Assembly: GCF_020731145.1 (NCBI RefSeq)
Contig: NZ_JAJFZN010000007.1
Span: 1 to 46,575, forward strand
DNA: 46,575 nt
Reading direction: 5' to 3'
DNA from: Sneathiella sp. HT1-7
Lineage (GTDB): Bacteria; Pseudomonadota; Alphaproteobacteria; Sneathiellales; Sneathiellaceae
Shown: positions 29,696 through 44,964 of the stretch, in pieces
How positions within the stretch are numbered: the stretch's first letter is position 1
How the letters are laid out: each line of letters begins with the position of its first letter
Notes under the pieces: generated by a model
What the model was told of the DNA's origin: nothing
Seen by the model: the letters and a program-made list of their open reading frames with translations, nothing else
Databases searched by the model: none
Translations under genes and position numbers: made by a program

Positions 29696-31672
29696 ATGAA
29701 TGAACTGTCACATCAAAGCATTGTCTGGGAACCCAGTGAGGAATTGATCAGCCAAAGTAATTTGGTAGCGTTCATGAAAAAGCATGACATTTCTGATTAT
29801 AACTCGCTGTTCAAACGCGCAGAGGAAGAGCCGGAATGGTGGTGGAACGCCATTGCCGATCGCATCCGTTTTATAAAACCTTATGAGAAGATTTTGGATA
29901 CCTCCCGCGGGATTGAATTTCCAGAATGGTTTGTGGGCGGCACGACCAATATCGTAGAGAACTCGCTGAGCTGTCATCGCGGTACAGAGGTATGGACATC
30001 GCCGGCTGTTCTCGGCGAGTCCGAAGGAGGGGAAACCCGCATCTGGACCTATGAGGAGTTGAGTGCGGAAGTCTCTCGGCTGGCGGCGGGGTTGCAATCG
30101 CTAGGCGTGCAGCCCGGCGAAGTGGTTGCCGTCTATATGCCCAATGTGAATGAAGCGGTCGCCGCCCTGCTGGCGGTGCCGAAGATCGGCGCGGTGGTGA
30201 TGCCGCTTTTCTCCGGTTTCGGGGTGGATGCCGTTCTTGCCCGCTTGACGGCGTCCGAGGCGGTCGCCATCCTCACTGTAGATGGTGCGACGCGGCGCGG
30301 ACAGACAGCACCGATGAAGGAAGTTGCCGATGCCGCGGCCGCCCGCGCGCCAAGTGTCCGCAATGTTGTCTGCCTCCGGCGAACAGGCCATCCCGTCACC
30401 ATGGGCGAGACAGATGTTGACTGGGAGGGGCTATGCGAGGGTCAGCCGACGGACATGCCAAATGCTGAGATGCCAGCGGAAGCACCCGCACTGCTGGTCT
30501 ACACCTCTGGTACTTCGGGCCAGCCCAAAGGAACCGTACATACCCATGGCGGCTTTCCGGCAAAACTGTCGCTTGATCTAGGCTTGATGATGGATATGAA
30601 GAGCAGCGACCGGATCGTCTGGTTTTCCGATATGGGCTGGCTGGTTGGGCCACTGCTAGCGTTCGGCGCAACCCTGATGGGGGCGTCCTTCGTCATTGCC
30701 GATGGCGCGCCGGACTATCCCGACAATACACGGATGTGGCGACTGATCGAAAAGCACCGCGTTACATTCTTGGGCGTGTCTCCAACGTTGATCCGGGGTT
30801 TCATGCATGGGGCAGGGGTAGGCGATCATGACATTTCCTCCATACGGATCGTCGCCTCCACGGGGGAGGCCTGGACGTCTGATGCCTGGTGGTGGACATT
30901 TGAGAATGTTCTCAAAAGAGACGGACCAATTATCAACTATACTGGCGGGACGGAAATTGGCGGGGGTATTCTGGCTGGTTCCGTACTGCGTCCCATGAAG
31001 GCCTGTGCTTTTTCTGGCCCAGTGCCGGGGATGGGCGCCGATATTGTTGATATGGATGGGAAGCCAGTTGGGCCAGGAAATGTAGGAGAGCTGGTCCTGC
31101 GCGTTCCCTCCATCGGGCTCAGCCGGGGATTGTGGAAAGATAACGAACGCTACCTTTCCAGCTATTGGCGGGATATTCCCGGCTGCTGGCGTCAGGGCGA
31201 CTGGGCCGTGCGGGATGAGGACGGCTTCTGGTTTGTCCTCGGCCGGTCCGATGACACGCTGAAAATCGCGGGAAAGCGCACCGGTCCGTCGGAGATTGAG
31301 GCATTGCTCACCGCCACCGGCAAGGTGCGGGAGGCGGCGGCGATCGGCATTCCGGACGAAATCAAGGGTGAAAGCGTCGCCTGCGTCGTTGTTCTGGATA
31401 AGAACATAGCGGCGGGCGTGGACGTTGAGAAGGAACTGTCCGATGCGGTGATCGCCGGATTGGGCTATCCCTACAAGCCGAAATTCATTCTGACCGTCGC
31501 CGATCTGCCGAAGACGCGCAATATGAAGGTGATGCGGCGGCTGGTGCGTGCGGTCTGCCTAGGCAAGCCGCTTGGCGACACCTCGTCGCTGGTCAATCCG
31601 GAGGCGCTGGACGCGATATCAGCGGCCGTAGTCCAGAGCGGACATATGGTAAGTGCTGGAGATAATTTGTAG
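29696..31672 (+). CDS. acyl-CoA synthetase (acetyl-CoA-synthetase-like, AMP-forming)
   Basis: 658 residues with an ACAS-type N-terminal extension (about 20-110) absent from short acyl-CoA ligases. Adenylation motifs are complete: YTSGTSGQPKGTVHTHGG (P-loop-like), YTGGTEIGGG, QGDWAVRDEDGFWFVLGRSD and DDTLKIAGKRTGPSEIE. The C-terminal Lys lies in PKTRNMKVMRR. It would activate a carboxylate to its CoA thioester. The substrate is unknown, with short-chain or beta-keto acids usual in this branch. It is monocistronic, divergent from ubiT and convergent with livF. It lacks the YKAAC-N4-GTTWG operator, so it may not belong to the TetR regulon. Confidence 0.88.
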   Translation: MNELSHQSIVWEPSEELISQSNLVAFMKKHDISDYNSLFKRAEEEPEWWWNAIADRIRFIKPYEKILDTSRGIEFPEWFVGGTTNIVENSLSCHRGTEVWTSPAVLGESEGGETRIWTYEELSAEVSRLAAGLQSLGVQPGEVVAVYMPNVNEAVAALLAVPKIGAVVMPLFSGFGVDAVLARLTASEAVAILTVDGATRRGQTAPMKEVADAAAARAPSVRNVVCLRRTGHPVTMGETDVDWEGLCEGQPTDMPNAEMPAEAPALLVYTSGTSGQPKGTVHTHGGFPAKLSLDLGLMMDMKSSDRIVWFSDMGWLVGPLLAFGATLMGASFVIADGAPDYPDNTRMWRLIEKHRVTFLGVSPTLIRGFMHGAGVGDHDISSIRIVASTGEAWTSDAWWWTFENVLKRDGPIINYTGGTEIGGGILAGSVLRPMKACAFSGPVPGMGADIVDMDGKPVGPGNVGELVLRVPSIGLSRGLWKDNERYLSSYWRDIPGCWRQGDWAVRDEDGFWFVLGRSDDTLKIAGKRTGPSEIEALLTATGKVREAAAIGIPDEIKGESVACVVVLDKNIAAGVDVEKELSDAVIAGLGYPYKPKFILTVADLPKTRNMKVMRRLVRAVCLGKPLGDTSSLVNPEALDAISAAVVQSGHMVSAGDNL

Positions 31673-31733: not shown

Positions 31734-32456
31734 TCAAAGCCCCAGATACGCTTCTCGCACTTTGTCATTCTGGATGAGTTCTTGCCCCTTGCCGGTCAGA
31801 GTGATCTGGCCGTTTTCCAGTACATAGGCCTGATCCGCGAGTTCGAGCGCCATATGTGCATTCTGCTCAACCAGCAGGATGTCCACGCCATTTCGGGAGA
31901 TAGTCTGGATGATATTGCCGATCGTTTCCACGATGGTCGGCGCAAGGCCGATGGAGGGCTCATCGAGCATGAGCAGCCGAGGCGAGGCCATCAGGGCGCG
32001 CCCGACCGCGAGCATTTGCTGCTGACCCCCGCTCAGGGAATTCGCGGGCATATGCAGACGATCTTTCAGGATCGGGAAATAATCGAGAACGGTTTCCAGA
32101 TCCTTCTGGATGGCGTCCTTGTCTGTCCGCACATAGGCCCCGGACATCAAATTGTCGCGGATGTTCATCGTCGGAAACAGCCGCCGCCCTTCTGGGACGA
32201 GAGTGAGGCCCCTAGCGACTGTATGGGCGGGTGAAAGGCTCGTGATATCTTCCCCTTGAAATTCGATTTTTCCTTTTAACGGGGTTAGCAGTCCGGCAAC
32301 CGCCTTCATTAGTGTCGTTTTTCCAGCACCGTTTGCGCCAACAATTGTGGTGATCTCGCCCCGCTTGACCGATAAGCTGACACCTTCAAGTGCCGGAACG
32401 CCACTATAACTGACGAACAGGTCGTGGATAGATAAAATGACATTTGGTTGGTTCAT
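31734..32456 (-). CDS. livF: branched-chain-type ABC importer ATPase LivF
   Basis: 240 residues. Walker A GANGAGKTTLMKAV, signature LSGGQQQMLAVGRAL, Walker B RLLMLDEPSIGLAP and the switch His region (ILLVEQNAHMALEL) are intact. LivF pairs with LivG to power uptake through LivHM. Its ATG overlaps the livG stop by four bases. In catabolic clusters these importers often carry aromatic or alicyclic acids rather than amino acids. Confidence 0.93.
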   Translation of the reverse strand: MNQPNVILSIHDLFVSYSGVPALEGVSLSVKRGEITTIVGANGAGKTTLMKAVAGLLTPLKGKIEFQGEDITSLSPAHTVARGLTLVPEGRRLFPTMNIRDNLMSGAYVRTDKDAIQKDLETVLDYFPILKDRLHMPANSLSGGQQQMLAVGRALMASPRLLMLDEPSIGLAPTIVETIGNIIQTISRNGVDILLVEQNAHMALELADQAYVLENGQITLTGKGQELIQNDKVREAYLGL

Positions 32457-33226
32457 TTTTTATGTCCAAGATAAGCTTCGATTACAAGGTCATTCTGGCT
32501 TACTTCTTCAGGCGTGCCGGCCGCAAGAAGCCGGCCATGATTCAATACAAGTATTCGATCACAGATCCGCATAACAGCCCGCATGTTATGTTCAACTAGC
32601 AGGATGGTTATGCCAAGTTCGCTGCGGATCATTTCGAAAAGATCAAGGGCGGCCTTAACTTCCGATCCTTGCAGCCCCGTCAACGGCTCGTCGAGGCATA
32701 GCACCTTCGGTTCAGCAGCAAGGGCAATGGCAATGCTGAGCATTCTCTGCAGACCATGTGGAAGACTGCTGGCAGTTACTTTTAGATAATCTTCTAGGCC
32801 AGTCAGTTTCGCCATTTCACGCATTTTTTCCTGTCGCGCTGCGGCGGTTTTTAAACGATGAGTCGTTGCTATAATGATATTGTCCGCAACACTCATTTCA
32901 CTGAGCAGACTCTCATGCTGGAATGTTCGTATGAGGCCCATACGACTGATGTAAGTTGCGCTTTTACTAGTAATATTCTGGTCAAGGAATGAGAGCGTCC
33001 CGGATGTCGGCGGTATAAATCCACTGATCAAATTGAAAGTCGTACTTTTTCCGGCGCCATTGGGGCCAATTAGCCCAAGGATTTCCCCTTCGTGTAATTC
33101 AAAGCTGAAATCTGCTACGGCCGTAAGACCACCAAATTTGCGCTCCAGGCTTTCTGCCTTCAGGAGGATTTTCCCTTCGCTACTCTTGTTGTATCCAGAA
33201 AGCGTATCTGTCTGAGTATCGTTCAA
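32453..33226 (-). CDS. livG: branched-chain-type ABC importer ATPase LivG
   Basis: 257 residues. Walker [17 protein letters not shown] and Walker [17 protein letters not shown] are normal. The ABC signature reads [15 protein letters not shown] in place of the usual LSxGxQ, an odd substitution of the conserved Ser (Pro-His). The C-terminal LivG/BCA-type tail is present. The ATPase site formed with LivF may be asymmetric. Overlaps with livM and livF show one operon. Confidence 0.9.
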
Positions 33227-34158
33227 CGTCCCGCCCTCCCCATTAATGTGCCAGCTTTGAAACGCACGCCAAGACCGACAATTCCGCCAGGTACAAGGAG
33301 TAGGGCGCCAATAATAATTGCGCCATAGAAAATGTTCTCATAGGGTCCGAAGCTGTGAAGGAATTGCCCCGCCAAGGTCAGGATTGTTGCTCCGATGATG
33401 GGGCCTACAATATGACCTTCGCCACCAATTTTGACATAGGCTAGGGCAAGTACCGCAACAAAATAGGTAAAATCCGCCGGGGCAATGACGCTATTCGTAT
33501 AGGCATGGACGCCACCGACAAGGCCCACTGCCGTGGAAGCGATAACTAAACATAGAATTTTGAGACCGATTACATTCAACCCGACAGAACGCGGAATATC
33601 TTCGTTGTTCTTAATTGCCTTAAATACACGGCCAAGATTGGAACGTTCTGCCGCGTAAAGCCCAAACAGGATTGCCGCCAGGATGGAAATGGCAATTGCC
33701 GGAAAATATGCATCCAGTTCCATTGGAGGGAACATTCCGATCATGCCAGAATTCCCGCCGAGCGCTTCTGTTTTTGTATAGATAAGCCGGACAATTTCGG
33801 TGAAGGCAAATGAAATCAGCAGGAAGTAGGGACCCTTGGTTCTAAGGGTGATCCATCCGAACAGTGAACTGATCACACCGGCGATTACTGGGGCGGCAAG
33901 AAGCGAGATGAAAAATGGCCAGCCCAGGATGGTTGACGCCACTGCTGTCGTATAGGCGCCTATGCCAAAAAAGGCGGCTGTTGCGATATTCAACTCGCCG
34001 ATCAGCAGTACGAATCTCAGCGTGACTGCCAGCGCCGCGTTTGCAAAGACCCAGATGACGACCTGCACATAGTAGGGGTCGCCGCTAAAAAGAGCAAAGC
34101 AGATCGCGCCAATGGCGATCAGAATGCAAAGGGCGAGCCCCGGATTACTTTTCAGCAT
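33223..34158 (-). CDS. livM: branched-chain-type ABC permease LivM
   Basis: 311 residues with about 9-10 membrane helices. LLIGELNIATAAFFGIGAYT and YFLLISFAFTEIVRLIYTKT are typical LivM sequences. The cytoplasmic EAA-like coupling loop lies near GRVFKAIKNNEDIPRSVGLN. It forms the translocation pore with LivH. The ATG lies 14 bases inside livH. Confidence 0.92.
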   Translation of the reverse strand: MLKSNPGLALCILIAIGAICFALFSGDPYYVQVVIWVFANAALAVTLRFVLLIGELNIATAAFFGIGAYTTAVASTILGWPFFISLLAAPVIAGVISSLFGWITLRTKGPYFLLISFAFTEIVRLIYTKTEALGGNSGMIGMFPPMELDAYFPAIAISILAAILFGLYAAERSNLGRVFKAIKNNEDIPRSVGLNVIGLKILCLVIASTAVGLVGGVHAYTNSVIAPADFTYFVAVLALAYVKIGGEGHIVGPIIGATILTLAGQFLHSFGPYENIFYGAIIIGALLLVPGGIVGLGVRFKAGTLMGRAGR

Positions 34159-35029
34159 GACCTAAAATTCCCTGTGGACGGACAATAAGCAGAATTACGA
34201 CTAGTACAAACATGGCAAGCGTTGCCGTGGATGGGTCAAAATAATAGCCACCAAAACTTTCAATCAGAGCGATTAGAAGGCCCCCCAGAATAGCACCTAG
34301 GACGCTTCCCAGTCCGCCGATAATGATGATGATGAAGGCTTTGACAAGAAAGTCATCGCCGATAACGGTCGTAACCGGTGTGACAGTCGCCATCAGCGCG
34401 CCGGCACAGGCGGCCAATGTGGCGCCGATGAGAAACCCGTACAGGGCCACCCGGCGATAGGGGATGCCCTGAAGCATGGCGGCCTCCTGATCTTCGGCGA
34501 CCGCGCGCAGGCTGAGACCAAGCTTTGTCCTGTGGACGAGAATATAAAGACCCAGCGTGATGATGGCCGCAACGATCATGAGCACCAGCCGTTGAATGGT
34601 GAGACTTGCGCCCAGAATAGTGATGTTTCCCGGTATGACGGCGGGAATGGAGCGTGGCACGCCTCCGTAGAGGATCAGGTAAGTGCCGTTCAGCAGCAGC
34701 AGCAATCCGATCGACAAGATGAAGGATCCATTCAGATCCTTCAGGACATACTTAAAGCCGAAAAAATAAACCACAAAGCCAATTACACAAACAACCAGGA
34801 GCGCCATGACAAAGGCAATAAGATAGGAAAACCAGATTGGCATTCCAATGGTATCCACGCTCCACATCATTACTGAAGTGACGACTAGAGCCGCGGCTGT
34901 GAAAAAAGTACCGTGCGCAAAATTTACGATTTTCATAACGCCGAAGATCAAGGTCAGTCCAAGTGCAAACAGCACGTAAACTGATCCGATTTGAAGCGTA
35001 TTCATGAGAAGTTGTACTTGTAGTTCCAT
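34145..35029 (-). CDS. livH: branched-chain-type ABC permease LivH
   Basis: 294 residues, about eight membrane helices. GSVYVLFALGLTLIFGVMKI and NFAHGTFFTAAALVV at the N-terminus are the LivH hallmark. The coupling loop is around SLRAVAEDQEAAMLQGIPYR. Partner of LivM. The preceding 89-base gap to livK holds a strong hairpin, so permease levels may be set below binding-protein levels. Confidence 0.93.
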   Translation of the reverse strand: MELQVQLLMNTLQIGSVYVLFALGLTLIFGVMKIVNFAHGTFFTAAALVVTSVMMWSVDTIGMPIWFSYLIAFVMALLVVCVIGFVVYFFGFKYVLKDLNGSFILSIGLLLLLNGTYLILYGGVPRSIPAVIPGNITILGASLTIQRLVLMIVAAIITLGLYILVHRTKLGLSLRAVAEDQEAAMLQGIPYRRVALYGFLIGATLAACAGALMATVTPVTTVIGDDFLVKAFIIIIIGGLGSVLGAILGGLLIALIESFGGYYFDPSTATLAMFVLVVILLIVRPQGILGHAEK

Positions 35030-35118: not shown

Positions 35119-36312
35119 TTACTTAAGTCGTTTCTTAAGTTCAGCTGGTGCAATCCGTCCTACTTCAACGGCTTTTCCGTCACGCAATTGCGTAATCATG
35201 ACAGGAACAAGTATTTGCTGAGGATTGCCATAAACTTCTGCACCACCAAAAGCCGCGGGGCCATATGAAGATTCAAAAATGATTGTCGGTAGGGTTTCTG
35301 CAATCTTTTTTGGCTCGATACTGTCAGCTGTTTCGATCGCTTTCTTAAGCGCCATTACGGCATCATAGCTTGAAATCGTGATGCCATTCAGGGCTTCGCC
35401 CAGCTTCTCCATTGCCCCAGCGTTCAGCTCACGTTGAATTTCGCTTGCTGACTCCCCGGTGAAGTCCGCAGATGCTCCTAAATAAGTACCTTCTGCGGCG
35501 GCGCCGGCCATTTTGCTCAACGTACCTGCGGAGGTGCCGGCAGGAACAACTTTAATGCCATTCCATCCAAGGACATCCAGTGCTTTCAACATTGAGCCAA
35601 CATCAGTAGGCGGAGAGGCGCCGAAATCCACGATATCCGCATTGCTGGTTGCTATTTTCGTGGCGATTGACTGGAATTCAGTTGTGCCACGTTCGTATTT
35701 GTCCTTCGATATGACTTCTACGTCCAGATTGCCCCAGGTATCTATTGCAACAGGCTCAAGCTCCTGGCCAGTCGCGTCGTTCGGGGTGATCATTGCGACT
35801 GTTTTGGCATCGGGATGTTGCTCTTTTATATAGCCGTAGAAAGGTGCAAGAATTTCGAACGGCGTGTTCATTTGAGTAAAGGTAAGTGGATACTTTGGCC
35901 CTTTGATGCTTTTTCCCCAGCCGGTATTGAAGAGTAGGGCGCCTTTTCGTTCAGATAGCGCCTGCGTCGCTTTTACTGGGGCCGTTCCAATGCTGCCGAC
36001 AATGAAGTTAATATTCTCTCGGTTCAGCATCGTTTGGGCCGTTTTGGCGCCTTCGGCTGCATTGTATTTATTGTCATATGCATGCAGTTCCAGCATATAG
36101 GTCTTGCCACCAGCCTTGATGCCACCTTCAGCGTTGATTTTCGCGACAGCTTGTTCGGCCGCGTATTCAAAACCTAAGCCCCATGCCGCCGCTGCACCTG
36201 ACATTGGTGCTGAAATGCCCACTTTGAGTGTTTCGTCGGCGATAGCCGTTTGCGCACTGAACAAGGCTAGTAGAGCCCCTCCAGTAATGCCAATTATTTT
36301 CTTCATAGACAT
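35119..36312 (-). CDS. livK: periplasmic substrate-binding protein of the Liv-type importer
   Basis: 397 residues. Signal peptide MSMKKIIGITGGALLALFSA with cleavage about AIA-DE (near 25-26). The mature part is a type I periplasmic binding protein (Peripla_BP_6): VGISAPMSGAAAAWGLGFEY, FIVGSIGTAPVKATQAL and KTVAMITPNDATGQE. Such proteins in CoA-ligase clusters bind aromatic or cyclic acids. The ligand is not determinable here. GAGGGAGA precedes the ATG. It follows the SDR gene by 56 bases within the ligase-SDR-liv operon. Confidence 0.92.
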   Translation of the reverse strand: MSMKKIIGITGGALLALFSAQTAIADETLKVGISAPMSGAAAAWGLGFEYAAEQAVAKINAEGGIKAGGKTYMLELHAYDNKYNAAEGAKTAQTMLNRENINFIVGSIGTAPVKATQALSERKGALLFNTGWGKSIKGPKYPLTFTQMNTPFEILAPFYGYIKEQHPDAKTVAMITPNDATGQELEPVAIDTWGNLDVEVISKDKYERGTTEFQSIATKIATSNADIVDFGASPPTDVGSMLKALDVLGWNGIKVVPAGTSAGTLSKMAGAAAEGTYLGASADFTGESASEIQRELNAGAMEKLGEALNGITISSYDAVMALKKAIETADSIEPKKIAETLPTIIFESSYGPAAFGGAEVYGNPQQILVPVMITQLRDGKAVEVGRIAPAELKKRLK

Positions 36313-36368: not shown

Positions 36369-37160
36369 CTAAAGATTTGCTGATATTCCTCCTGAAACCG
36401 GCAAGGAGGCACCGGTAATAAAGTTTGAATCGGGGCCGACGAGAAAGCTGACCGCACCCGCAATATCTTCTGGTTGGCCCAATCGTTTCAGCAGAGATCG
36501 ATTGGTGTAGTCCTTCACCATTTCAGGAGCTGCTTTCTCAATGACGGAGGTCTGTATTAATCCTGGCACAATACAATTTACCCGAACATTTGGCGCCAGC
36601 TCGATTGCCAGAGAGCGGGTTAGGGACGAGACCGCTGCTTTTGCGGCGGCATATTCCGGCTGATCGCCATCCCCGGCGAAGGTCACTGAGGATATATTGA
36701 CAATCACACCTTTCTTGCGCGCTATCATGCCTGGGGCCGTGGCCTGCACCATCCAGAAAAGCGGCTTCAGATTAAGGGTGAAGGTGCTGTCGAAGCGATC
36801 CTCGCTCATCCCAAGAATGGGGGTCACCAATTCGCCGCCGCGGATACCGCCCACAACATTGACCAAAATGGAGACCGGGCCCAGTGCGTCCACGATTTCG
36901 GCAATGGCGGCGTTCGTTTCTTTTTCATCGGTGGCGTTCGCCCGCGCCGTCTGAATGCGGGTGTCCGGATGCCGGGGCTGGATGCCTTCGGCCGTCGCGA
37001 CAACACGTCGGCCCGAAATGTCTATCAGGCCGAGGGCCGCCCCGTCCGCCGCCAACCTTTCGGCAATCGCCGCGCCCATCGGGCCGCCTGCTCCGCTGAC
37101 AAGGGCGACGGTACCCGCCAGCGGAAGCGGCCTATTTGTGAAAGACGATTGTTCTGTCAT
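36369..37160 (-). CDS. SDR-family oxidoreductase (classical)
   Basis: 263 residues. The cofactor motif is VSGAGGPMGAAIAERL, and DISGRR following beta-2 suggests NAD preference. The catalytic elements are NISSV, Y-A-A-A-K in PEYAAAKAAVSSLTR and the C-terminal PVSGG. NVVGG replaces the usual NNAG. It probably oxidises a hydroxyacyl-CoA in the same pathway as the ligase. Its ATG overlaps the ligase stop by one base (TAATG), showing tight coupling. Confidence 0.88.
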   Translation of the reverse strand: MTEQSSFTNRPLPLAGTVALVSGAGGPMGAAIAERLAADGAALGLIDISGRRVVATAEGIQPRHPDTRIQTARANATDEKETNAAIAEIVDALGPVSILVNVVGGIRGGELVTPILGMSEDRFDSTFTLNLKPLFWMVQATAPGMIARKKGVIVNISSVTFAGDGDQPEYAAAKAAVSSLTRSLAIELAPNVRVNCIVPGLIQTSVIEKAAPEMVKDYTNRSLLKRLGQPEDIAGAVSFLVGPDSNFITGASLPVSGGISANL

Positions 37161-38710
37161 TACTGGACCTCTTTCAATTTACCCTGGCCTTCTGTGTACC
37201 AGTCGCGGAGAGTGCGTTTGAGTATTTTGTTGGACGGGCCGAGAGGCATGTCGTCAACTGTGTAGACACGGCGGGGCGACTTGTAGGCCGACAGATTCTT
37301 GCGGCAAAAGGCGATGATATTCGCCGCATCCAGCGTATGCCCGGCGTGCGGAATAACCACGGCGACCGGAATTTCGCTCTTGTCCTTGTCCGGCAGGCCG
37401 ATAACGGCGCAGATGCGGATACTGGGGTGCTGGTAAAGCAGATCCTCGACTTCCAGTGGGTAAATATTGTAGCCGCCGGAAATAATGACATCCTTTTTCC
37501 GGTCCACGATGAACAGATAGCCGTCTTCATCGAGATACCCGAGGTCGCCGCTGAGCCAGCCATCAGGCGTGAAGCTGGCGGCTGTTGTTTCGGTGTCGCC
37601 CCAGTAGCCCGCGCCGATGGTGTCGCCGGAAATCCGTACTTCGCCAATTTCGCCGTTCGATACTTCCGTGCCGTTGTCATTGACGATGCTAATGCGGGCG
37701 CCGCCGAGCGGTACTCCGGCGGAGCCTCGTTTGCGCACGCCAAAGAGTGGTTCGCCCGTCACATAGCCAGTACTTTCTGTCGCGCCGTAAATCTGCAGTA
37801 GAGGAACGCCCATTTTCTCTTCAAATTGCTGCATGACATTCGGCGAGACGGGTGATCCGCCTGTCACACAGGTCTTCAGCGAACTGAGATCATGTTTCGC
37901 GGGGTCGAAATCGCGGAGCAGGTACAAGAACATGGTCGGTGATCCGGCAAGATAGGTCACCTTTTCGCGGGTGATCGCCTCCAGCACGGCATCTGTGTCC
38001 CAACGCTCCATCTGGATCATTTTTGCGCCCGAAAAAATCGCCCCGTTCATCATGCAAGTGGCGCCAAAGTTATTGAACAGCGGCAGGGCGCAAAGAAAGA
38101 CTTCCTGGCCCCACAAAAGGCCGCCGTGAACCGCCATGTCGCGCAGCGTCGTATACTGGCTGAGCTGTGTCTGCATTGCGCCTTTGGGTGCTCCCGTGGT
38201 GCCGGAGGTGAAGAACAGGGCAACGACATCTTCGGCCTTGAAATCAGGTAATGAATAGGCCGTGTCGGCGGCATCTGCCAGGGCGTCCACGTCAAGGGCG
38301 CCGTCCGCCGCACCGCCGGTAACGAAAATCGTCTCCAGTTTGCCGGTTTCCTGTCGCACCTCAAGGGCGTAGGGCAGAGTCTCCCGATTGGTAAGGATGT
38401 TTTTCATGTCAGTCCGCGTAACAGTGGATTTCACCTCATGCACGCGGTTCATGCTGCTAATGGGATTGGCGATAGCGCCGACTTTCTGGCATGCCCAGTA
38501 CCCTAGGGCCATTTCCGGGCAACTCGAAAGGTACAGCCCGATCGCCTCCCCGGCCTTTGCGCCATTCGCCTTGAGCACATTCGCGAGCTGTGAAGTCCTC
38601 GCATCAAATTCGGCAAAGGTCAGTGTCCGCCCTTCAAAGCTGATGAAAATCTGATTCCCAACAAGGTGCGATGTATTTTCCAGACATTGCGCTAAAGACG
38701 TAACTGTCAC
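37160..38710 (-). CDS. AMP-forming acyl/aryl-CoA ligase
   Basis: 516 residues from a GTG with GGGAGG seven bases upstream. Motifs: FFTSGTTGAPKGAMQTQLS, QIYGATESTG, SGDLGYLDEDGYLFIVDRKK, then DVIISGGYNIYPLEVEDLL and the acylation Lys in PSNKILKRTLRD. Family members activate medium-chain, cyclic or aromatic acids, and the substrate is not known. It is the first gene of an operon continuing through the SDR and livKHMGF, so uptake and activation are co-regulated. A TetR-type operator lies at 38807-38820, just upstream of the promoter. Confidence 0.9.
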   Translation of the reverse strand: MTVTSLAQCLENTSHLVGNQIFISFEGRTLTFAEFDARTSQLANVLKANGAKAGEAIGLYLSSCPEMALGYWACQKVGAIANPISSMNRVHEVKSTVTRTDMKNILTNRETLPYALEVRQETGKLETIFVTGGAADGALDVDALADAADTAYSLPDFKAEDVVALFFTSGTTGAPKGAMQTQLSQYTTLRDMAVHGGLLWGQEVFLCALPLFNNFGATCMMNGAIFSGAKMIQMERWDTDAVLEAITREKVTYLAGSPTMFLYLLRDFDPAKHDLSSLKTCVTGGSPVSPNVMQQFEEKMGVPLLQIYGATESTGYVTGEPLFGVRKRGSAGVPLGGARISIVNDNGTEVSNGEIGEVRISGDTIGAGYWGDTETTAASFTPDGWLSGDLGYLDEDGYLFIVDRKKDVIISGGYNIYPLEVEDLLYQHPSIRICAVIGLPDKDKSEIPVAVVIPHAGHTLDAANIIAFCRKNLSAYKSPRRVYTVDDMPLGPSNKILKRTLRDWYTEGQGKLKEVQ

Positions 38711-38806: not shown

Positions 38807-38820
38807 TGAACATTTGTTAG
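38807..38820. promoter_or_regulatory. operator site 1 (TetR-type dyad)
   Basis: TGAAC-ATTT-GTTAG. One half-site matches the operator sites 3 and 4 exactly; the other has two changes. It lies 97 bases upstream of the ligase start. Confidence 0.5.
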
Positions 38821-38950
38821 TTTTTTTTGTGAAGTGGCGGCGCACGGCAGCTTGCTCCTGATTTGCAGAAGGGCGGAGGGCGGCCCGTGGCACGGATTTT
38901 CAAAAACGTGGCGCGTTGTTGAATAGGCGGGGTGGGGCGAAAAGGAGCCC

Positions 38951-40267
38951 TTACGGGGTCATGCCCCCATTATGGACAATGCCGTTAAGCAGCAAGGATT
39001 GTTGCAAGGCGATCATTTCCTGCAAGCTGTAGTAGCCGTCCTGTCCGCCCTTTTCCGGGTTGAACCATTCGACGGTCCAGTTCAGCGCGCCAATCAGGAA
39101 CAGCCGAAGGGGGACAACCTCAAAATCACGGCGGATGATCCGGTTTTCCTGAGCGTTTTGTAGACATGCATCCCATGCGGCAGCGTATTTCATGCGCACC
39201 GGGCGATGCCGTTCGCGTATCTCATGCGGGAGTTGCCCATACATGCGGATATTTGCGGAGGTGAATTCGCCGCGTGCGAACAGAACCCGCATATGCGCAT
39301 TGATGGCGGCGGCGAGCTGCCGACTGTTGTCGGGGTAGCGCGCATGGTCATAGAGGATTTGTGATACCCCATCCGCCATTTCCCGCAAGCCTCGGTCGAG
39401 CACTGCATCGAGCAGATGTTCCTTGGATTTGAAATGGTAATAGATGCTGCCTGCTTCCATATTCGCCTCGGCCGCGATGCGGCGCAGGGTCGATGCGCTA
39501 TAGCCATTTGCCCGCATGACTTTCGCGGCTGAGGACAGGATGTGCATGCGGGTTCGCGCCACCTTGCTGTCGGCCTGCTCAATCAAGCCCTCGTCCAGAA
39601 AGTCCATTTCCTCCACCGGGAAGGGATGCTTGCTGGTTTCCACCAGCATGCCGTCGAGAATCAGCATAGCGGCGCTTTCGGATATAGCACTGACCGGATA
39701 GCTCGAGTCGTGGAACCATTCCCCCATCCAGTTTAGCGCGCCCAGAAGAAAGTGGCGCAGCGGTGCAATTTTGATGTCGGAACGGATCTGCCCCTCTTGG
39801 AGGGCCTTATGCAGGAGCTCCTCCCACAGCTTCGCATAGGCCATACGCAATGGACGGTGGCGCTCGCGCATATGCAGGGGAAGCATGGAAAAGTTGCGGA
39901 TGTTTGCGGAGGTGAAGTCATTTTCCTTGAGCAGATAGACTAGATGGTAATGGACCATCTGGGCAAAAGTCTCGCGAAAGTCGCAGCCCTCCACCTTGCA
40001 GGCATCCCGCGCCTCCCTGACAGCGTGGTAGAGTTGGCGCAGCCCTTTATCGAGAACCGTGTCAAATATCTCTTCTTTCGAGGCGAAATGATAGTAGATG
40101 CTACCGGCCTCGACACCGGCGGCGTCAGCGATCCGGCGCAGGGTGGATGGTCCGTAGCCTAAAGCCCGAAATTGTTTCGCTGCCGCTGTTAAAATAGTAA
40201 AGCGGGTTATTTCTGATTTTTTTGCCGTCGCGTCGGGCGATAGGGTTATTTCCGGTGTCACATTCAT
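38951..40267 (-). CDS. tandem TetR/AcrR regulator (two complete TetR units in one chain)
   Basis: 438 residues, about twice a normal TetR protein. Unit one spans about 20-210 and unit two about 233-430. Both contain the helix-turn-helix (STLRRIADAAGVEAGSIYYH and STLRRIAAEANMEAGSIYYH), then SKE..., VLDxGLR, FTSANIR, RERHRPxRM, and PLRxFLxGALNW with EWF. The internal identity points to duplication and fusion. One chain could mimic a TetR dimer, or form higher-order assemblies on DNA. Ligands are probably acyl- or aryl-CoA, as in TetR regulators of such clusters. Four YKAAC-N4-GTTWG dyads at cluster promoters, one beside its own gene, are the likely operators. It is divergent from the BadH-like SDR. 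Confidence 0.88.
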   Translation of the reverse strand: MNVTPEITLSPDATAKKSEITRFTILTAAAKQFRALGYGPSTLRRIADAAGVEAGSIYYHFASKEEIFDTVLDKGLRQLYHAVREARDACKVEGCDFRETFAQMVHYHLVYLLKENDFTSANIRNFSMLPLHMRERHRPLRMAYAKLWEELLHKALQEGQIRSDIKIAPLRHFLLGALNWMGEWFHDSSYPVSAISESAAMLILDGMLVETSKHPFPVEEMDFLDEGLIEQADSKVARTRMHILSSAAKVMRANGYSASTLRRIAAEANMEAGSIYYHFKSKEHLLDAVLDRGLREMADGVSQILYDHARYPDNSRQLAAAINAHMRVLFARGEFTSANIRMYGQLPHEIRERHRPVRMKYAAAWDACLQNAQENRIIRRDFEVVPLRLFLIGALNWTVEWFNPEKGGQDGYYSLQEMIALQQSLLLNGIVHNGGMTP

Positions 40268-40283
40268 GACGTTTAATTCCTTC

Positions 40284-40311
40284 TTGACAGAAGATTGTCA
40301 AGCAATGTAAT
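40284..40311 (+). promoter_or_regulatory. promoter of the BadH-like SDR
   Basis: TTGACA (40284-40289) and TGTAAT (40306-40311) are 16 bases apart. The -35 is half of a perfect dyad, CTTGACA-N6-TGTCAAG (40283-40302), which could itself be a protein site in the divergent tetR/SDR region. Confidence 0.6.
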
Positions 40312-40327
40312 TCGAACAAATGTTTGA
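40312..40327. promoter_or_regulatory. operator site 2 (TetR-type dyad)
   Basis: TCGAAC-AAAT-GTTTGA begins at the base after the -10 and covers the expected transcription start of the SDR gene, a classic repressor position. One mismatch between the extended arms. Confidence 0.65.
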
Positions 40328-40381
40328 TTTTATCAGGCAAGTGGGAAAAATTCAATATAAACGGGTATGGGAGAAGGCGAA

Positions 40382-41143
40382 ATGCGTGGACTTGCGGGAA
40401 AACATGTCATCGTAACCGGTAGCGGTAGCGGTATTGGACGCGAAATTGCCAAGCGTTTTGCTGAAGAAGGGGCGATTGTTGCCCTGTTCGACATGAATAC
40501 TGATGGCGCCTCAGAAACACTTGGAATGATTGAGGAAAATGGCGGCCGTGGCGCCGTTTACACGGTCGATATCACCAATTGCGAGGCGGTCAGCCACGCG
40601 GTGGCTGCGGCGGAGAAAGTCGCCCCAATTAACGTTCTGGTCAATAATGCGGGCTGGGACAAGATGGTTAATTTCCTCGATTCGGATGTGGATCTTTGGA
40701 AGAAAGTCATCGATATAAATCTCTACGGTGCATTGTATATGCATCATGCGGTTCTTCCTGGAATGGTAGAAAACGGTGGTGGCAGGGTGATCAATATCAG
40801 CTCCGACGCGGGCCGTGTCGGCTCCTCGGGTGAGGCTGTCTATTCTGCCTGCAAGGGCGGGCTGATTGCCTTCACCAAAACCGTCGCGCGGGAGCTGGCG
40901 AGGGCCGGTGTCCAGCTCAATACGGTCTGTCCGGGTCCGACGGATACGCCGCTGTTCGCCAGTGTTTCCGAAGGTCCCGCTGCAGATAAGATTACCGAGG
41001 GGCTGAAACGCGCGATCCCCATGAAGCGGTTGGCGCAGCCGTCGGATTTTCCGGGCATTGTCTGCTTTTTGGCGTCGGATGACGCCGGCTTCATTACGGG
41101 CCAGACTATATCGGTCTCCGGCGGCCTGACAATGCATGGCTAG
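40382..41143 (+). CDS. BadH-like 2-hydroxycyclohexanecarboxyl-CoA dehydrogenase (SDR)
   Basis: 253 residues from the ATG at 40382, preceded by GGAGAAGG. A start at 40367 has no such site. Features: TGSGSGIGREIAKRFAEEGA (cofactor), FDMNTDG (NAD preference), NNAGWD, MHHAVLPGMVENGGG, ISSDAGRVGSSGEAVYSACK with the Y-S-A-C-K catalytic pair, and DDAGFITGQTISVSGGLTMH at the end. The MHHAVLPGMVE, RVGSSGEAVY.ACKGGL and FITGQ..SVSGGLTM segments closely resemble Rhodopseudomonas BadH, which oxidises the hydroxyl of an alicyclic-ring acyl-CoA. No BadI ring hydrolase is recognised, so the exact ring substrate is inference. Confidence 0.82.
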   Translation: MRGLAGKHVIVTGSGSGIGREIAKRFAEEGAIVALFDMNTDGASETLGMIEENGGRGAVYTVDITNCEAVSHAVAAAEKVAPINVLVNNAGWDKMVNFLDSDVDLWKKVIDINLYGALYMHHAVLPGMVENGGGRVINISSDAGRVGSSGEAVYSACKGGLIAFTKTVARELARAGVQLNTVCPGPTDTPLFASVSEGPAADKITEGLKRAIPMKRLAQPSDFPGIVCFLASDDAGFITGQTISVSGGLTMHG

Positions 41144-41202
41144 GCAGGAGAGGGGCTGGCGAGAAACGGAAAAGAGGCCTCGCCGCCTGTCGGCTATTTG
41201 TC

Positions 41203-41231
41203 TTGTCACGCTTTCTAACGTGAGTTAGAAT
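41203..41231 (+). promoter_or_regulatory. promoter of the PaaK-like ligase operon
   Basis: TTGTCA (41203-41208) and TAGAAT (41226-41231) are separated by 17 bases. The spacer and -10 are covered by operator site 3. Confidence 0.6.
41213..41230. promoter_or_regulatory. operator site 3 (TetR-type dyad)
   Basis: TTCTAAC-GTGA-GTTAGAA has perfect seven-base arms. It occupies the -35/-10 spacer and most of the -10, so a bound protein would exclude RNA polymerase. Confidence 0.72.
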
Positions 41232-41548
41232 TTCTCGACACAGGGAATAATTTGCCCCGGAAACAGCGGGTGGAATACGGGTTCTTTGCGGGAGGTAAGG
41301 GGCACTGCCGGCCGGGAGAGGCGGCTTTTTTGTCCCGGCATAAGGCAACCCGTCTTTAGGATCCCGGCAGGGGATCTGCGGCGAACCCGGAGATCAGAAA
41401 AAGGGAGGTCCTGCGGATCGGTTCTATAAGATAAAAACGAGACATAAAAATCCGTTTCGGAACTTTCGCGAATCATTAGAAGAAATCTCCGGGTTCGCGA
41501 GGCTTCAGGGAAAATCATAAAACTCCAGCGATGCAAAAAGGAAAAAAA

Positions 41549-42949
41549 ATGGCTTCTAGGGAATATAATATGCAATACCGCCGGGCGGATGCGGCGGGCA
41601 AAAAAGGCGACACCTGCTGGCATCCCATCGAGGTGATGCCGCTTGACGAGGTCAGAAAGTTGCAGGAACGTAAGCTGGTCGAGCAGATGGCCTATCTCAA
41701 GGAACGCTCCCCCTTTTACCAGAAAAAATTTGCCGATGCGGGGGTCTCTTTCGACGATATCCGCTCCATCGAGGATATGCAGAGGCTGCCTTTCACCTAC
41801 AAGACCGAAATCCGCGAAAGCCTGAGTGCCCAGCGGCCGTTCGGGCTGCATCTCGCGGCGGACGCCAAGGATATCGTGCAGATGCAGGCCTCCTCCGGCA
41901 CCACGGGTAGCCCGTCCTATGTGGCGCTGACGGAGAATGATGCCGAAATGTGGCATGAGATGAATGCGCGCTGCTTCTTCGCCTGCGGCATCCGTCCAGG
42001 CGATATGTCGTTGCATGCCTTTGCGATGGCCAAGGGCTTCGTCGGCGGCCTGCCGATTGCGCAGTCGATGCAGTATATGGGTGTTGTCGATATCCCGATC
42101 GGTGCGGATGGCGGGGCGGACCGCCTGCTGCGCGCGGCGGCTGATTTGCGGCCCCGCGTCCTTGCCGGGGCGCCGAATTTCACCATGTATCTTGCCGAGA
42201 AAGCGCCGGAAACCGTGGGCGTTGATGCCAGCACTCTCGGTGTCGAGGTGGTTCTCGTGGGCGGGGAGCCAGGCGGCGGCATTCCGGCTATCCGCCAGAA
42301 AATCGAAAAACTCTGGGGGGCGAAGTGCTACGAAATGCTCGGCGGCACCGATATCGCCGTCGCCTATTGGGGTGAGTGCCAGGAGCAGTCCGGCATGCAT
42401 ATGGTCGGCATGGATTACATCATCACCGAACTGCTGGATCCGGCGACGGAGAAGGTCATTCCCTTCACCGACGGCGCGGAAGGGGAGCTCGTCTATACCG
42501 CCATCGGGCGGGAGGCGAACCCGCTGGTCCGGTTCCGCTCCGGCGATCATGTGGAGGTGCGGGGCACCAGTTGCGCCTGCGGCCGGACCGGTCCGAAAGT
42601 GCGCTGCATTGGCCGCACGGACGACATGCTGATCATCCGCGGGGCGAATGTGTTCCCCTCGGCCATCCAGAGTGTGATCACCGATTTGGTGCCAGAGACC
42701 AACGGCGTCATGCGCGTCCTTGCGGATTTCGAAGGGCATACCTCGCAAGGCGCGCTCAAGGTCCTTGTCGAGCGGGGACGGGGGCGTTCCCCGGATCAGG
42801 ATGCTGCGCTCAAGCAGTCGATCGAGACGCATTTGCGCAATTCGCTCGCCTTCAAGGCAGATGTCCGCATTGTCGATTCGGATACCTTCGAAAAGCCGGG
42901 GGCGGTGAAGGTTGCGCTGACCCTGCGGGAGTATCCGGACCTGCCGTGA
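41549..42949 (+). CDS. PaaK-family (phenylacetate-type) CoA ligase
   Basis: 466 residues from the ATG at 41549, six bases after AAGGA. An ATG at 41531 has a poorer context. Family features: N-terminal RKLQERKLVEQMAYLKERSP, the phosphate loop QASSGTTGSPSYVALTEND, YEMLGGTDIAVAYWGECQ, RFRSGDHVEV with C-A-C-G, and MLIIRGANVFPSAIQSVI before the C-terminal AMP-binding lid. It joins an aryl- or arylacetic-type acid to CoA with ATP. The exact acid is not known. Followed by an SDR after 107 bases, probably in one transcript. Confidence 0.9.
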   Translation: MASREYNMQYRRADAAGKKGDTCWHPIEVMPLDEVRKLQERKLVEQMAYLKERSPFYQKKFADAGVSFDDIRSIEDMQRLPFTYKTEIRESLSAQRPFGLHLAADAKDIVQMQASSGTTGSPSYVALTENDAEMWHEMNARCFFACGIRPGDMSLHAFAMAKGFVGGLPIAQSMQYMGVVDIPIGADGGADRLLRAAADLRPRVLAGAPNFTMYLAEKAPETVGVDASTLGVEVVLVGGEPGGGIPAIRQKIEKLWGAKCYEMLGGTDIAVAYWGECQEQSGMHMVGMDYIITELLDPATEKVIPFTDGAEGELVYTAIGREANPLVRFRSGDHVEVRGTSCACGRTGPKVRCIGRTDDMLIIRGANVFPSAIQSVITDLVPETNGVMRVLADFEGHTSQGALKVLVERGRGRSPDQDAALKQSIETHLRNSLAFKADVRIVDSDTFEKPGAVKVALTLREYPDLP

Positions 42950-43056
42950 GGCAGGGCATGAGTGACATGCTTGAATGAGAAAACGTCGGCTCTCTGGTGG
43001 GAAACAGCATGGGAGAACCGTCATGACGCGACGCATAAAAAACAGGGATTAGGAAA

Positions 43057-43842
43057 ATGGATCTGGGGCTTAAGGGAAAACGGGTATTGATCACGGGCGC
43101 ATCGCAAGGCATTGGCGAAGGTCTGGCGGAAGTGTTCGCGGAAGAGGGGGCAGACTTGTTTCTGGCAGCCCGGCAGGAGGATCGCCTAAAAGGCATTGCT
43201 AAACGCGTGACGGAGGCGCATGGCGTCAAGGCGGAATATTTTCCGGCCGATTTTACGAAAAAAGGGGATATCGACAAGCTGCATGCCGCCGCCGGTGACA
43301 TCGACATTCTGGTCAATAATGCCGGGGCCATACCGGGCGGCGATCTGTGGCAGGTCGGGGTCGATGACTGGCGCCCGGGCTGGGACGTCAAGGTGATGGG
43401 ATATATTGACATGACCCGGCTCTTCTATGCCAGCATGAAGGCGCGCGGGCATGGCGTGATCCTCAACAATATCGGTAATGGCGGCGAGAATTTCGATTTC
43501 CGCTATATCGCGGGGACCACGGGGAATGCGGCGCTGATGGCCTTCACCAAGGCAATGGGCGGGCATAGTTTGCAGGACAGTATCCGCGTTGTTGGCGTCA
43601 ATCCGGGACCGGTTGCCACCACGCGCATCGACAAGATCATGAAAGCCCGAGCGAAGGAGCGCTGGGGCGATGAAAGCCGCTATGGCGAACTATTGGCTAA
43701 TTATCCGCGTGGGCGGGCGGCGACGGTGCGTGAGATCGCCGATCTGTTCGCCTTTCTAGCCTCAGATCGGTCCAGCTATACTTCAGGTGTGATCTTCACT
43801 GTGGATGGCGGCATCACATCGAATATGTCCATCGGCGGATAA
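43057..43842 (+). CDS. atypical SDR-family protein
   Basis: 261 residues. The cofactor motif TGASQGIGEGLAEVF and NNAG are normal. The active-site region reads YIAGTTGNAALMAFTKAM, where Tyr-x3-Lys is expected next to AALxAFT, so the aligned Tyr and Lys are Gly and Asn. The nearest Tyr is three residues upstream. This pattern recurs in a recognisable SDR subgroup, so it is probably functional with altered chemistry. The C-terminus (SDRSSYTSGVIFTVDGG) is standard. It might act on a hydroxyacyl-CoA beside the PaaK-like ligase. Confidence 0.82.
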   Translation: MDLGLKGKRVLITGASQGIGEGLAEVFAEEGADLFLAARQEDRLKGIAKRVTEAHGVKAEYFPADFTKKGDIDKLHAAAGDIDILVNNAGAIPGGDLWQVGVDDWRPGWDVKVMGYIDMTRLFYASMKARGHGVILNNIGNGGENFDFRYIAGTTGNAALMAFTKAMGGHSLQDSIRVVGVNPGPVATTRIDKIMKARAKERWGDESRYGELLANYPRGRAATVREIADLFAFLASDRSSYTSGVIFTVDGGITSNMSIGG

Positions 43843-44154
43843 GGCGGTTGGTCGGCAATTCGCGGGCCTGCCGTAAGGTAGTTCGCGGATTTGCGCGTCA
43901 TGTTCTGGATTGACAATCGGGGCGCCCGCACATTAATCTAACATCTGTTAGGAAATTTACTAAAAAGAAAACAAACCTGACGCCGGGAGTATTTCAGCTT
44001 TGATGAAGGCGTTGTCACGATGGGCGGCGCGCCGATACGGGAATATCGGTCGCGCTGCCGGTCTCCTAAAAAAACCCGGCATCCATAGCCTGTTCACATG
44101 TGCCATCGGCGATGATGGTTCGATAGATCCGATAGAAAAGAAAGAACAAATAAT
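43843..44154. other. 312-base intergenic with promoter and operator
   Basis: TTGACA at 43910-43915 and TAATCT at 43934-43939 (18-base spacing) make a candidate promoter for the crotonase gene, with operator site 4 immediately after. The rest is untranslated leader. An antisense frame over the crotonase is a shadow. Confidence 0.5.
43938..43951. promoter_or_regulatory. operator site 4 (TetR-type dyad)
   Basis: CTAAC-ATCT-GTTAG, perfect arms. It overlaps the end of the -10 and the expected start of transcription, as at site 2. Confidence 0.68.
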
Positions 44155-44964
44155 ATGACTGATCGTTATGCTGCTTATACCAAACTGAAATTTGACTATC
44201 CGGCCGACCGTGTCCTGCGGATCACGTTTAGCAATCCCGAAACGTTCAATTCCGTAGACGCAGAAACACATACTCAAATGACGGATATCTGGCGCGATAT
44301 CGATCGCGATCCGGACATCAATGCCGTCATCGTTACCGGGGAAGGCAAGGCGTTTTCGGCGGGCGGCGATTTCGGGCTGATCGAGAAAATGACCGGCAAT
44401 TTCGACGAGATTATGAAGACCTGGAAGGAAGCGAAGGATCTCGTTTACAACATCATCAACTGCAATAAGCCTATTATCTCGGCGATCAATGGTCCGGCAG
44501 CCGGTGCGGGGCTCGTTGTTGGTATTCTGGCCGATGTGTCCATAGCCGGAAAGCGCGCGAAAATTGTCGATGGTCACCCCCGGCTCGGCGTTGCGGCGGG
44601 CGATGTCGCCGCCATCATCTGGCCGATGCTTTGCGGCATGGCGAAAGCGAAATACTATCTTCTCACCTGTAAGCCTGTGTCCGGAGAGGAAGCGGACCGC
44701 ATCGGTCTGGTGTCTATGTGCGTTGAGGATGACGAATTGCAGGAAACAGCGCTCGGTATCGCAACGGATCTTGCCAATGGTTCTCAAAGCGCAATCCGTT
44801 GGACAAAATATTCACTGAATAATTGGCTGCGTCAGGCGGGGCCGATCTTTGATGCCTCCACCGCGCTGGAAATGCTCGGCTTCATGGGCGAGGATGTGAA
44901 AGAAGGCGTCGCCTCCCACCGGGAAAAACGCGCGCCGAATTTCCGCAAAGACTGCCCGATTTAG
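44155..44964 (+). CDS. enoyl-CoA hydratase/isomerase (crotonase) family protein
   Basis: 269 residues. Oxyanion-hole segments are [12 protein letters not shown] and [10 protein letters not shown]. The position holding the first catalytic Glu in classical hydratases reads GHPRLG, while [12 protein letters not shown] supplies an Asp in the subgroup with the AGDG pattern. This fits a crotonase branch with altered acid-base residues. In the cluster it could hydrate a cyclic enoyl-CoA or open a ring after BadH-type oxidation, but neither is shown. It has its own promoter and operator site 4 and is followed by a terminator. Confidence 0.85.

Follow-up and report, generated by a model that had tools for sequence, protein, structure and literature searches.

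The stretch of DNA analysed here, referred to as the window, is the whole 46,575-base contig (C9) of the 3.83-Mb genome of Sneathiella sp. HT1-7. It carries a catabolic cluster with genes for acyl-CoA ligases, SDR dehydrogenases, a crotonase, and a liv-type transporter, among which lies the gene for a tandem TetR regulator, i.e., a protein with two TetR modules in one chain. Four 14-base dyads are found at the promoters of this cluster and, judging from their conservation, very probably represent a real regulon. The regulator and the predicted operators are arranged as follows:

38951..40267, minus strand: tandem TetR regulator, 438 aa, assigned by Pfam; proposed reader of the four operators; its gene lies between sites 1 and 2
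38807..38820: operator 1 (predicted), TGAACATTTGTTAG, upstream of the ligase1-SDR1-liv operon; kept in 3/3 orthologous clusters
40313..40326: operator 2 (predicted), CGAACAAATGTTTG, in the divergent tetR / badH-like promoter; kept in 3/3 orthologous clusters
41215..41228: operator 3 (predicted), CTAACGTGAGTTAG, within the PaaK-like ligase promoter, at its spacer and -10; kept in 3/3 orthologous clusters
43938..43951: operator 4 (predicted), CTAACATCTGTTAG, in the crotonase promoter, where it overlaps the -10; kept in 3/3 orthologous clusters

The four dyads had been proposed by a sequence-only reading of the window, and all four 14-mers were recovered exactly, with operator 4 as the perfect family consensus CTAACAnnTGTTAG and sites 1 to 3 each two letters off. 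Matches to the pattern YKAACNNNNGTTWG in the window came to six rows at four places, the four dyads only (0.41 rows expected; none of 100 shuffles reached six). The same reading had seen no copy upstream of livK, narK, ubiT, or the ligase at 29696, which agrees with a window-wide search at up to two mismatches that returned nothing beyond the four dyads; places with three mismatches (8011, 9062, and 12088) occurred at chance level. The 3.83-Mb genome holds the pattern at 31 distinct places (33 rows, as two palindromes are listed twice), 27 of them outside the cluster. From these 27, only 0.036 places would be expected in the 5,145-base cluster where four are seen (Poisson 7e-8, for a pattern chosen post hoc). 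By crude gene calls all four cluster dyads are intergenic, versus 4/27 of the other places (L006, L011, L013, and L028).

Conservation was followed in a set of 24 Sneathiella genomes that includes the window's own. Orthologous clusters are present in three of them (G019, G013, and G015), with regulators 89, 78, and 72% identical to that of the window, and all four dyads recur at the same four promoters (12/12). Alignments of the four clusters show no variation in 49 of 56 dyad columns versus 253 of 1016 columns elsewhere (Fisher 2e-21), the latter figure being lowered by outer alignment parts that are partly unalignable. The dyads are therefore conserved in orthologous clusters. In G013 (L069:10416-10912), where the cluster has lost the badH-like gene that separates site 2 from site 3, both operators are nevertheless kept. 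Two more distant Sneathiella clusters (regulator 58-59% identical) have two perfect dyads each, at neighbouring operons, and the tetR-badH gap of G014 (L073) contains a dyad with one mismatch. Across the genus, exact CTAACN4GTTAG occurs 48 times (orthologous copies counted), 46 times in intergenic DNA, and 42 of these 46 copies lie within 350 bases of a gene pointing away. CATACN4GTATG, used as a control because its composition is identical, was found at 24 places, and 4 of the 17 examined were intergenic, with two near a gene pointing away (Fisher 1e-8). Thus, the dyads are not a common feature of random intergenic DNA.

Linkage between dyad and regulator extends far beyond the genus. Among 84,980 species genomes scanned, 147 relatives of the regulator were found, from which the best 80 loci were kept; they belong to Bradyrhizobium, Ruegeria, Roseovarius, Sulfitobacter, Paracoccus, Hoeflea, Enterovirga, and other alphaproteobacterial genera. 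A dyad was defined as AAC-N4-GTT with at least three of four outer letters fitting. Gene calls found the regulator in 77/80 loci, and in 69 of these 77 a dyad is centred between 17 and 179 bases before the called start. Starts set by homology add eight loci (five of the eight without a dyad and the three uncalled), so that a dyad lies upstream of the regulator in 77/80; the remaining three (L133, L176, and L177) show a one-mismatch dyad. This homology-based survey examined 62/80 loci, 57 of them with a match, and its misses L138, L154, and L175 had a dyad by gene calls. Column counts across the loci give CTAACA-n-n-TGTTAG. As many of the 80 loci are closely related, a non-redundant set of 21 loci with regulators less than 80% identical was used to rank, with no motif preset, all 21,504 five-base dyads with spacers of 0 to 20 in the non-coding DNA around the regulator; L074 and L076, which belong to a second tandem family, had been excluded beforehand. 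CTAAC-N4-GTTAG ranked first (16/21), ranks 2 to 4 were this palindrome in other frames, and the next dyad independent of it reached 5/21. This linkage supports the proposal of the sequence-only reading that the cluster forms a coherent regulon with the tandem TetR as its likely repressor.

The regulator itself has two PF00440 (TetR_N) and two PF17932 (TetR_C_24) domains and so belongs to the TetR family. Its predicted structure (pTM 0.85) matches over its full length Mce3R (PDB 9b7y), a double TetR, at 18% identity in the Foldseek alignment. The recognition helix EAGSIYYHF is identical in the N and C halves of the window protein. In a tree of halves, 19 N halves (99/96) and 19 C halves (100/99) form clades joined as sisters at 90/76; the tree is midpoint-rooted, the join lies below the level that the tool marks with a star, 19 of the 37 tandems were used, and three of 16 single-module loci (L051, L053, and L064) are without a gene call. 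Descent of both halves from one internal duplication is nonetheless well supported by these sequences. The gamma-butyrolactone receptor name ScbR (NF041196) was set aside, as its 153.5 bits versus a cut-off of 150 are probably summed over the two matched stretches; this NCBIfam label on 38951-40267 is a likely source of misannotation. EdcR was considered as another possible tandem TetR and dropped: in the accessible part of its source it has one DNA-binding domain and a TetR_C_11 domain, and its operator differs. Among 398 genomes drawn from the phylum, only the window's own had a full-length match, a weak absence at a cut-off of 1e-60 with four candidates per genome scored; one single-module match came from another genome of the same class.

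Among characterized proteins, the nearest in architecture is Mce3R, the double-TetR repressor of Mycobacterium tuberculosis and the first such structure, in which, according to the available text, two distinct TetR sequences are fused, the helix-turn-helix motifs (HTHs) are non-identical, and the 25-bp site is non-palindromic (PMC11667970). The same source calls double TetRs infrequent and cites 204 predicted ones in Actinomycetes (PMC11667970). Two TetR modules in one chain with intrachain pairing appear, in the structural model, to be common to both proteins. Unlike in Mce3R, the halves of the Sneathiella family are sister clades that share most of the recognition helix, which does not fit a fusion of distinct TetRs, and the predicted operator is a 14-bp palindrome rather than an asymmetric site. 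In geometry the operator resembles that of PsrA, the fatty-acid TetR of Pseudomonas, which, as far as the accessible text goes, binds GAAACN4GTTTC at promoter sites including its own promoter and acts as both repressor and activator (PMC13104628). Compared with CTAACN4GTTAG, the geometry and the placement at promoters (its own included) are the same, whereas PsrA is a single-module homodimer and its arms have other letters. Identity with PsrA was rejected: NF053516 gives 73.7 bits versus a cut-off of 300, and two modules and CTAAC arms stand against a single-module homodimer on GAAACN4GTTTC. BkaR (Rv2506) is presented in the accessible text as a single-module, dimeric TetR repressor of branched-chain keto-acid genes with the operator GTTA(N)T(N4)A(N)TAAC (PMC3920632). 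Self-regulation, a divergent promoter, catabolic CoA genes, and a palindromic operator are likenesses suggested by the Sneathiella sequence, whereas BkaR has everted arms and a single module that binds as a dimer. An engineered single-chain TetR reportedly also places two TetR modules in one chain on one palindrome; that protein is man-made, whereas the Sneathiella-type tandem is natural and conserved. TetR operator regulons and double TetRs are thus known already, and a duplicated double TetR with a palindromic operator is apparently new; among the listed matches in open-licence papers, the literature contained no description of this double TetR, a related regulon, or a CTAAC/GTTAG TetR operator.

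The placement of the dyads suggests how they could act. Three had been described as lying at a -10, spacer, or start and one as abutting a -35, an arrangement borne out by a promoter scan and, for site 4, by eye, although individually weakly: the scan found six promoter-like sites versus 3.7 expected, so that single assignments are weak. Site 1, 97 bases from the start at 38710, lies 6 bases upstream of a TTGACT -35; site 2 directly follows the -10 of a tetR promoter, at a distance of 46 bases from the tetR start and 56 from the badH-like start; site 3 falls within the spacer and -10 of TTGTCA-N17-TAGAAT; and site 4 overlaps a -10 that is preceded by TTGACA. Across four species the -35 hexamer does not vary at sites 1, 3, and 4, while the tetR -35 at site 2 varies. 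The leader that separates site 3 from the PaaK-like gene was searched for a conserved element; beyond the promoter it is poorly conserved in the two more distant species.

We consider it likely, with considerable confidence, that the dyads are operators of the tandem TetR, a single chain of which would read the palindrome and repress the cluster and its own gene until released by a CoA ester. One polypeptide would fold as a TetR dimer does, with one of its two similar recognition helices on each arm of the 14-bp CTAACAnnTGTTAG; by analogy with the Mce3R complex, the single chain may form a TetR-like 'omega' with both HTHs entering the major groove. Two HTHs so alike would be expected to read a palindrome, and the predicted operator is one. 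Without inducer, the regulator would sit on the -10, start, or -35 region and repress the ligase1-SDR1-liv, tetR, badH-like, PaaK-like/SDR2, and crotonase transcripts, with binding at sites 2, 3, and 4, which overlap or abut the -10, blocking the polymerase. An acyl-CoA intermediate of the pathway, probably alicyclic or aromatic, would then release it. With 46 bases separating site 2 from the tetR start downstream of it, autoregulation belongs in this picture: site 2 could serve tetR and the badH-like gene at once, and tetR is likely a target itself, which amends the earlier reading.

Several observations weigh against this assignment. The two halves differ at the first helix position in 15/37 sequences, mostly E versus K, and the tetR-badH gap of both clusters with 58-59% identical regulators (G002 L071; G015:C79 L072) holds only a one-mismatch dyad. 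Nine of the 80 loci additionally encode a single-module TetR that shares 37-39% identity with the tandem, and a single-module TetR with the helix LAGSMYYHF (G000:C4:189903-190397, L187) has ATAACAACTGTTTG in its own promoter. Within the genus, CTAAC-type dyads also stand beside other functions (porphobilinogen synthase / acyl-CoA dehydrogenase; an ATP12-like gene), and a second Sneathiella tandem family, 43-47% identical, shows no CTAAC dyad in 8/8 loci. Finally, site 1 lies upstream of its -35, which makes repression at this site less certain.

The last point leads to an alternative, that the regulator activates at one site at least, most likely site 1. The position of site 1 relative to the TTGACT -35 is kept in four species, and PsrA is described, in the text accessible, as repressing as well as activating (PMC13104628). 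Sites 2 to 4, however, overlap or abut the -10, the usual position for repression, and most characterized TetR proteins are repressors according to the available text of PMC3511530, so that we regard activation as unlikely.

Another TetR may instead be the main reader of the dyads, for instance the single-module PF17932 protein of L187, perhaps of the fatty-acid type, which would place them in a wider lipid regulon. Besides ATAACAACTGTTTG in its own promoter there is ATAACAAATGTTTG in a malic-enzyme promoter, the PsrA operator has the same geometry (GAAACN4GTTTC, in the accessible text of PMC13104628), and such TetRs are also found in related clusters. In the genus, four single-module relatives (39-41%) have CTAACTAACGTTAG ahead of the matched stretch, at a distance of 20 to 62 bases. 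Single-module TetRs use AAC-N4-GTT dyads as well, so that the exclusivity of the tandem as reader is uncertain. As related TetRs share the dyad geometry, the dyad alone does not name its reader, and the link rests on its constant place beside the tandem regulator. That place has been kept at the tandem's own promoter through deep divergence (77/80 loci), and exact copies number 2 to 7 in the six genomes with a first-family tandem versus 0 to 3 in 13 genomes without such a tandem or a close single-module relative, although the grouping was made with the counts already known, the second tandem family is present in some of the 13, and some genomes are incomplete. Another TetR as main reader is on this evidence quite improbable. 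That the dyads are functionless chance or inherited sequence is scarcely credible, since the footprint of conserved columns, the dyad ranking, and the 80-locus survey speak against it, even though the promoter scan hardly exceeds its shuffles and the pattern was picked after the sites had been seen.

The genes behind the predicted operators are the following:

37160..38710, minus strand: acyl-CoA ligase (ligase1), PF00501/PF13193; first gene of the operator-1 operon
36369..37160, minus strand: SDR1 dehydrogenase, PF13561; operator-1 operon
35119..36312, minus strand: periplasmic binding protein, livK-like, PF13458; downstream of SDR1, with synteny kept in three relatives
31734-35029: four remaining liv-type transporter genes, named from the sequence-only reading and synteny
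40382..41143, plus strand: BadH-like SDR (2-hydroxycyclohexanecarboxyl-CoA dehydrogenase-like), operator 2; TIGR03206 at 341 bits, below the cut-off of 431; start picked by eye for a ribosome-binding site (mechanical open reading frame start 40367)
41531..42949, plus strand: PaaK-like acyl-CoA ligase, operator 3; PF00501/PF14535; TIGR02155 at 238 bits, below the cut-off of 646
43057..43842, plus strand: SDR2 dehydrogenase, 3' of the PaaK-like ligase; NF004779 at 395 bits, above the cut-off of 261
44155..44964, plus strand: crotonase / enoyl-CoA hydratase, operator 4; NF005595 at 440 bits, above the cut-off of 292

These genes would provide for CoA-ester formation, reduction or hydration, and substrate import. 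In other genera, dyads front operons with an AliB-like acyl-CoA dehydrogenase (TIGR03207, 526 bits versus a cut-off of 575) and an OYE-type reductase, while AtuA and biotin-carboxylase genes follow a weaker variant of the dyad or occupy a later position in the operon. The presence of these genes at dyad operons therefore suggests the catabolism of alicyclic, aromatic, or terpenoid acids, presumably with a CoA ester as inducer. A recombinase-like reading frame at the contig end (45427-46575) adjoins the cluster.

There is perhaps an even chance that these regulators make up a natural family of single-chain TetR 'pseudo-homodimers' that arose from one duplication, bind as a monomer per palindrome through two nearly equal HTHs, have ligand-binding halves free to diverge, and control a widespread regulon for alicyclic or aromatic acids. 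If so, one chain could sense two different CoA esters of the pathway or act without dimerization. Double TetRs of Alphaproteobacteria with a symmetric operator would then offer a test of why TetRs fuse, for a fixed stoichiometry or for the free divergence of ligand pockets. They would also give a catabolic pathway of roseobacters, Bradyrhizobium, and Sneathiella that is so far undescribed its ready-made operator and regulon, of use in annotation and as a sensor part.

Some further dyads and TetRs were noted in passing. Single-module TetRs, one or two per cluster, accompany the tandem in L109, L116, and similar loci; they belong to the families F25 (30-32% identity to the tandem) and F28 (37-39%) and are possible partners or competitors. 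In L109 and L116 such a TetR lies right behind a dyad, and the reader could be shared. The malic-enzyme gene fronted by ATAACAAATGTTTG (L189) and the TetR with ATAACAACTGTTTG may form a separate lipid regulon. CTAAC-type dyads in L192, L201, L215, L220, and L013 stand beside a 383-aa gene, which in L013, from the window's own genome and the only one scanned, encodes an acyl-CoA dehydrogenase and is oriented divergently from the porphobilinogen synthase gene; the geometry may be shared there by another regulator. The second tandem family (G000:C5:234180-235436, L076, and seven relatives) is encoded near an FMO-like gene, scanned in L076, with badH-like genes in some genomes, and its candidate dyads are ATAACGTTAT, upstream in 4/8 loci, and ATAAG-N6-CTTAT, in 5/8.
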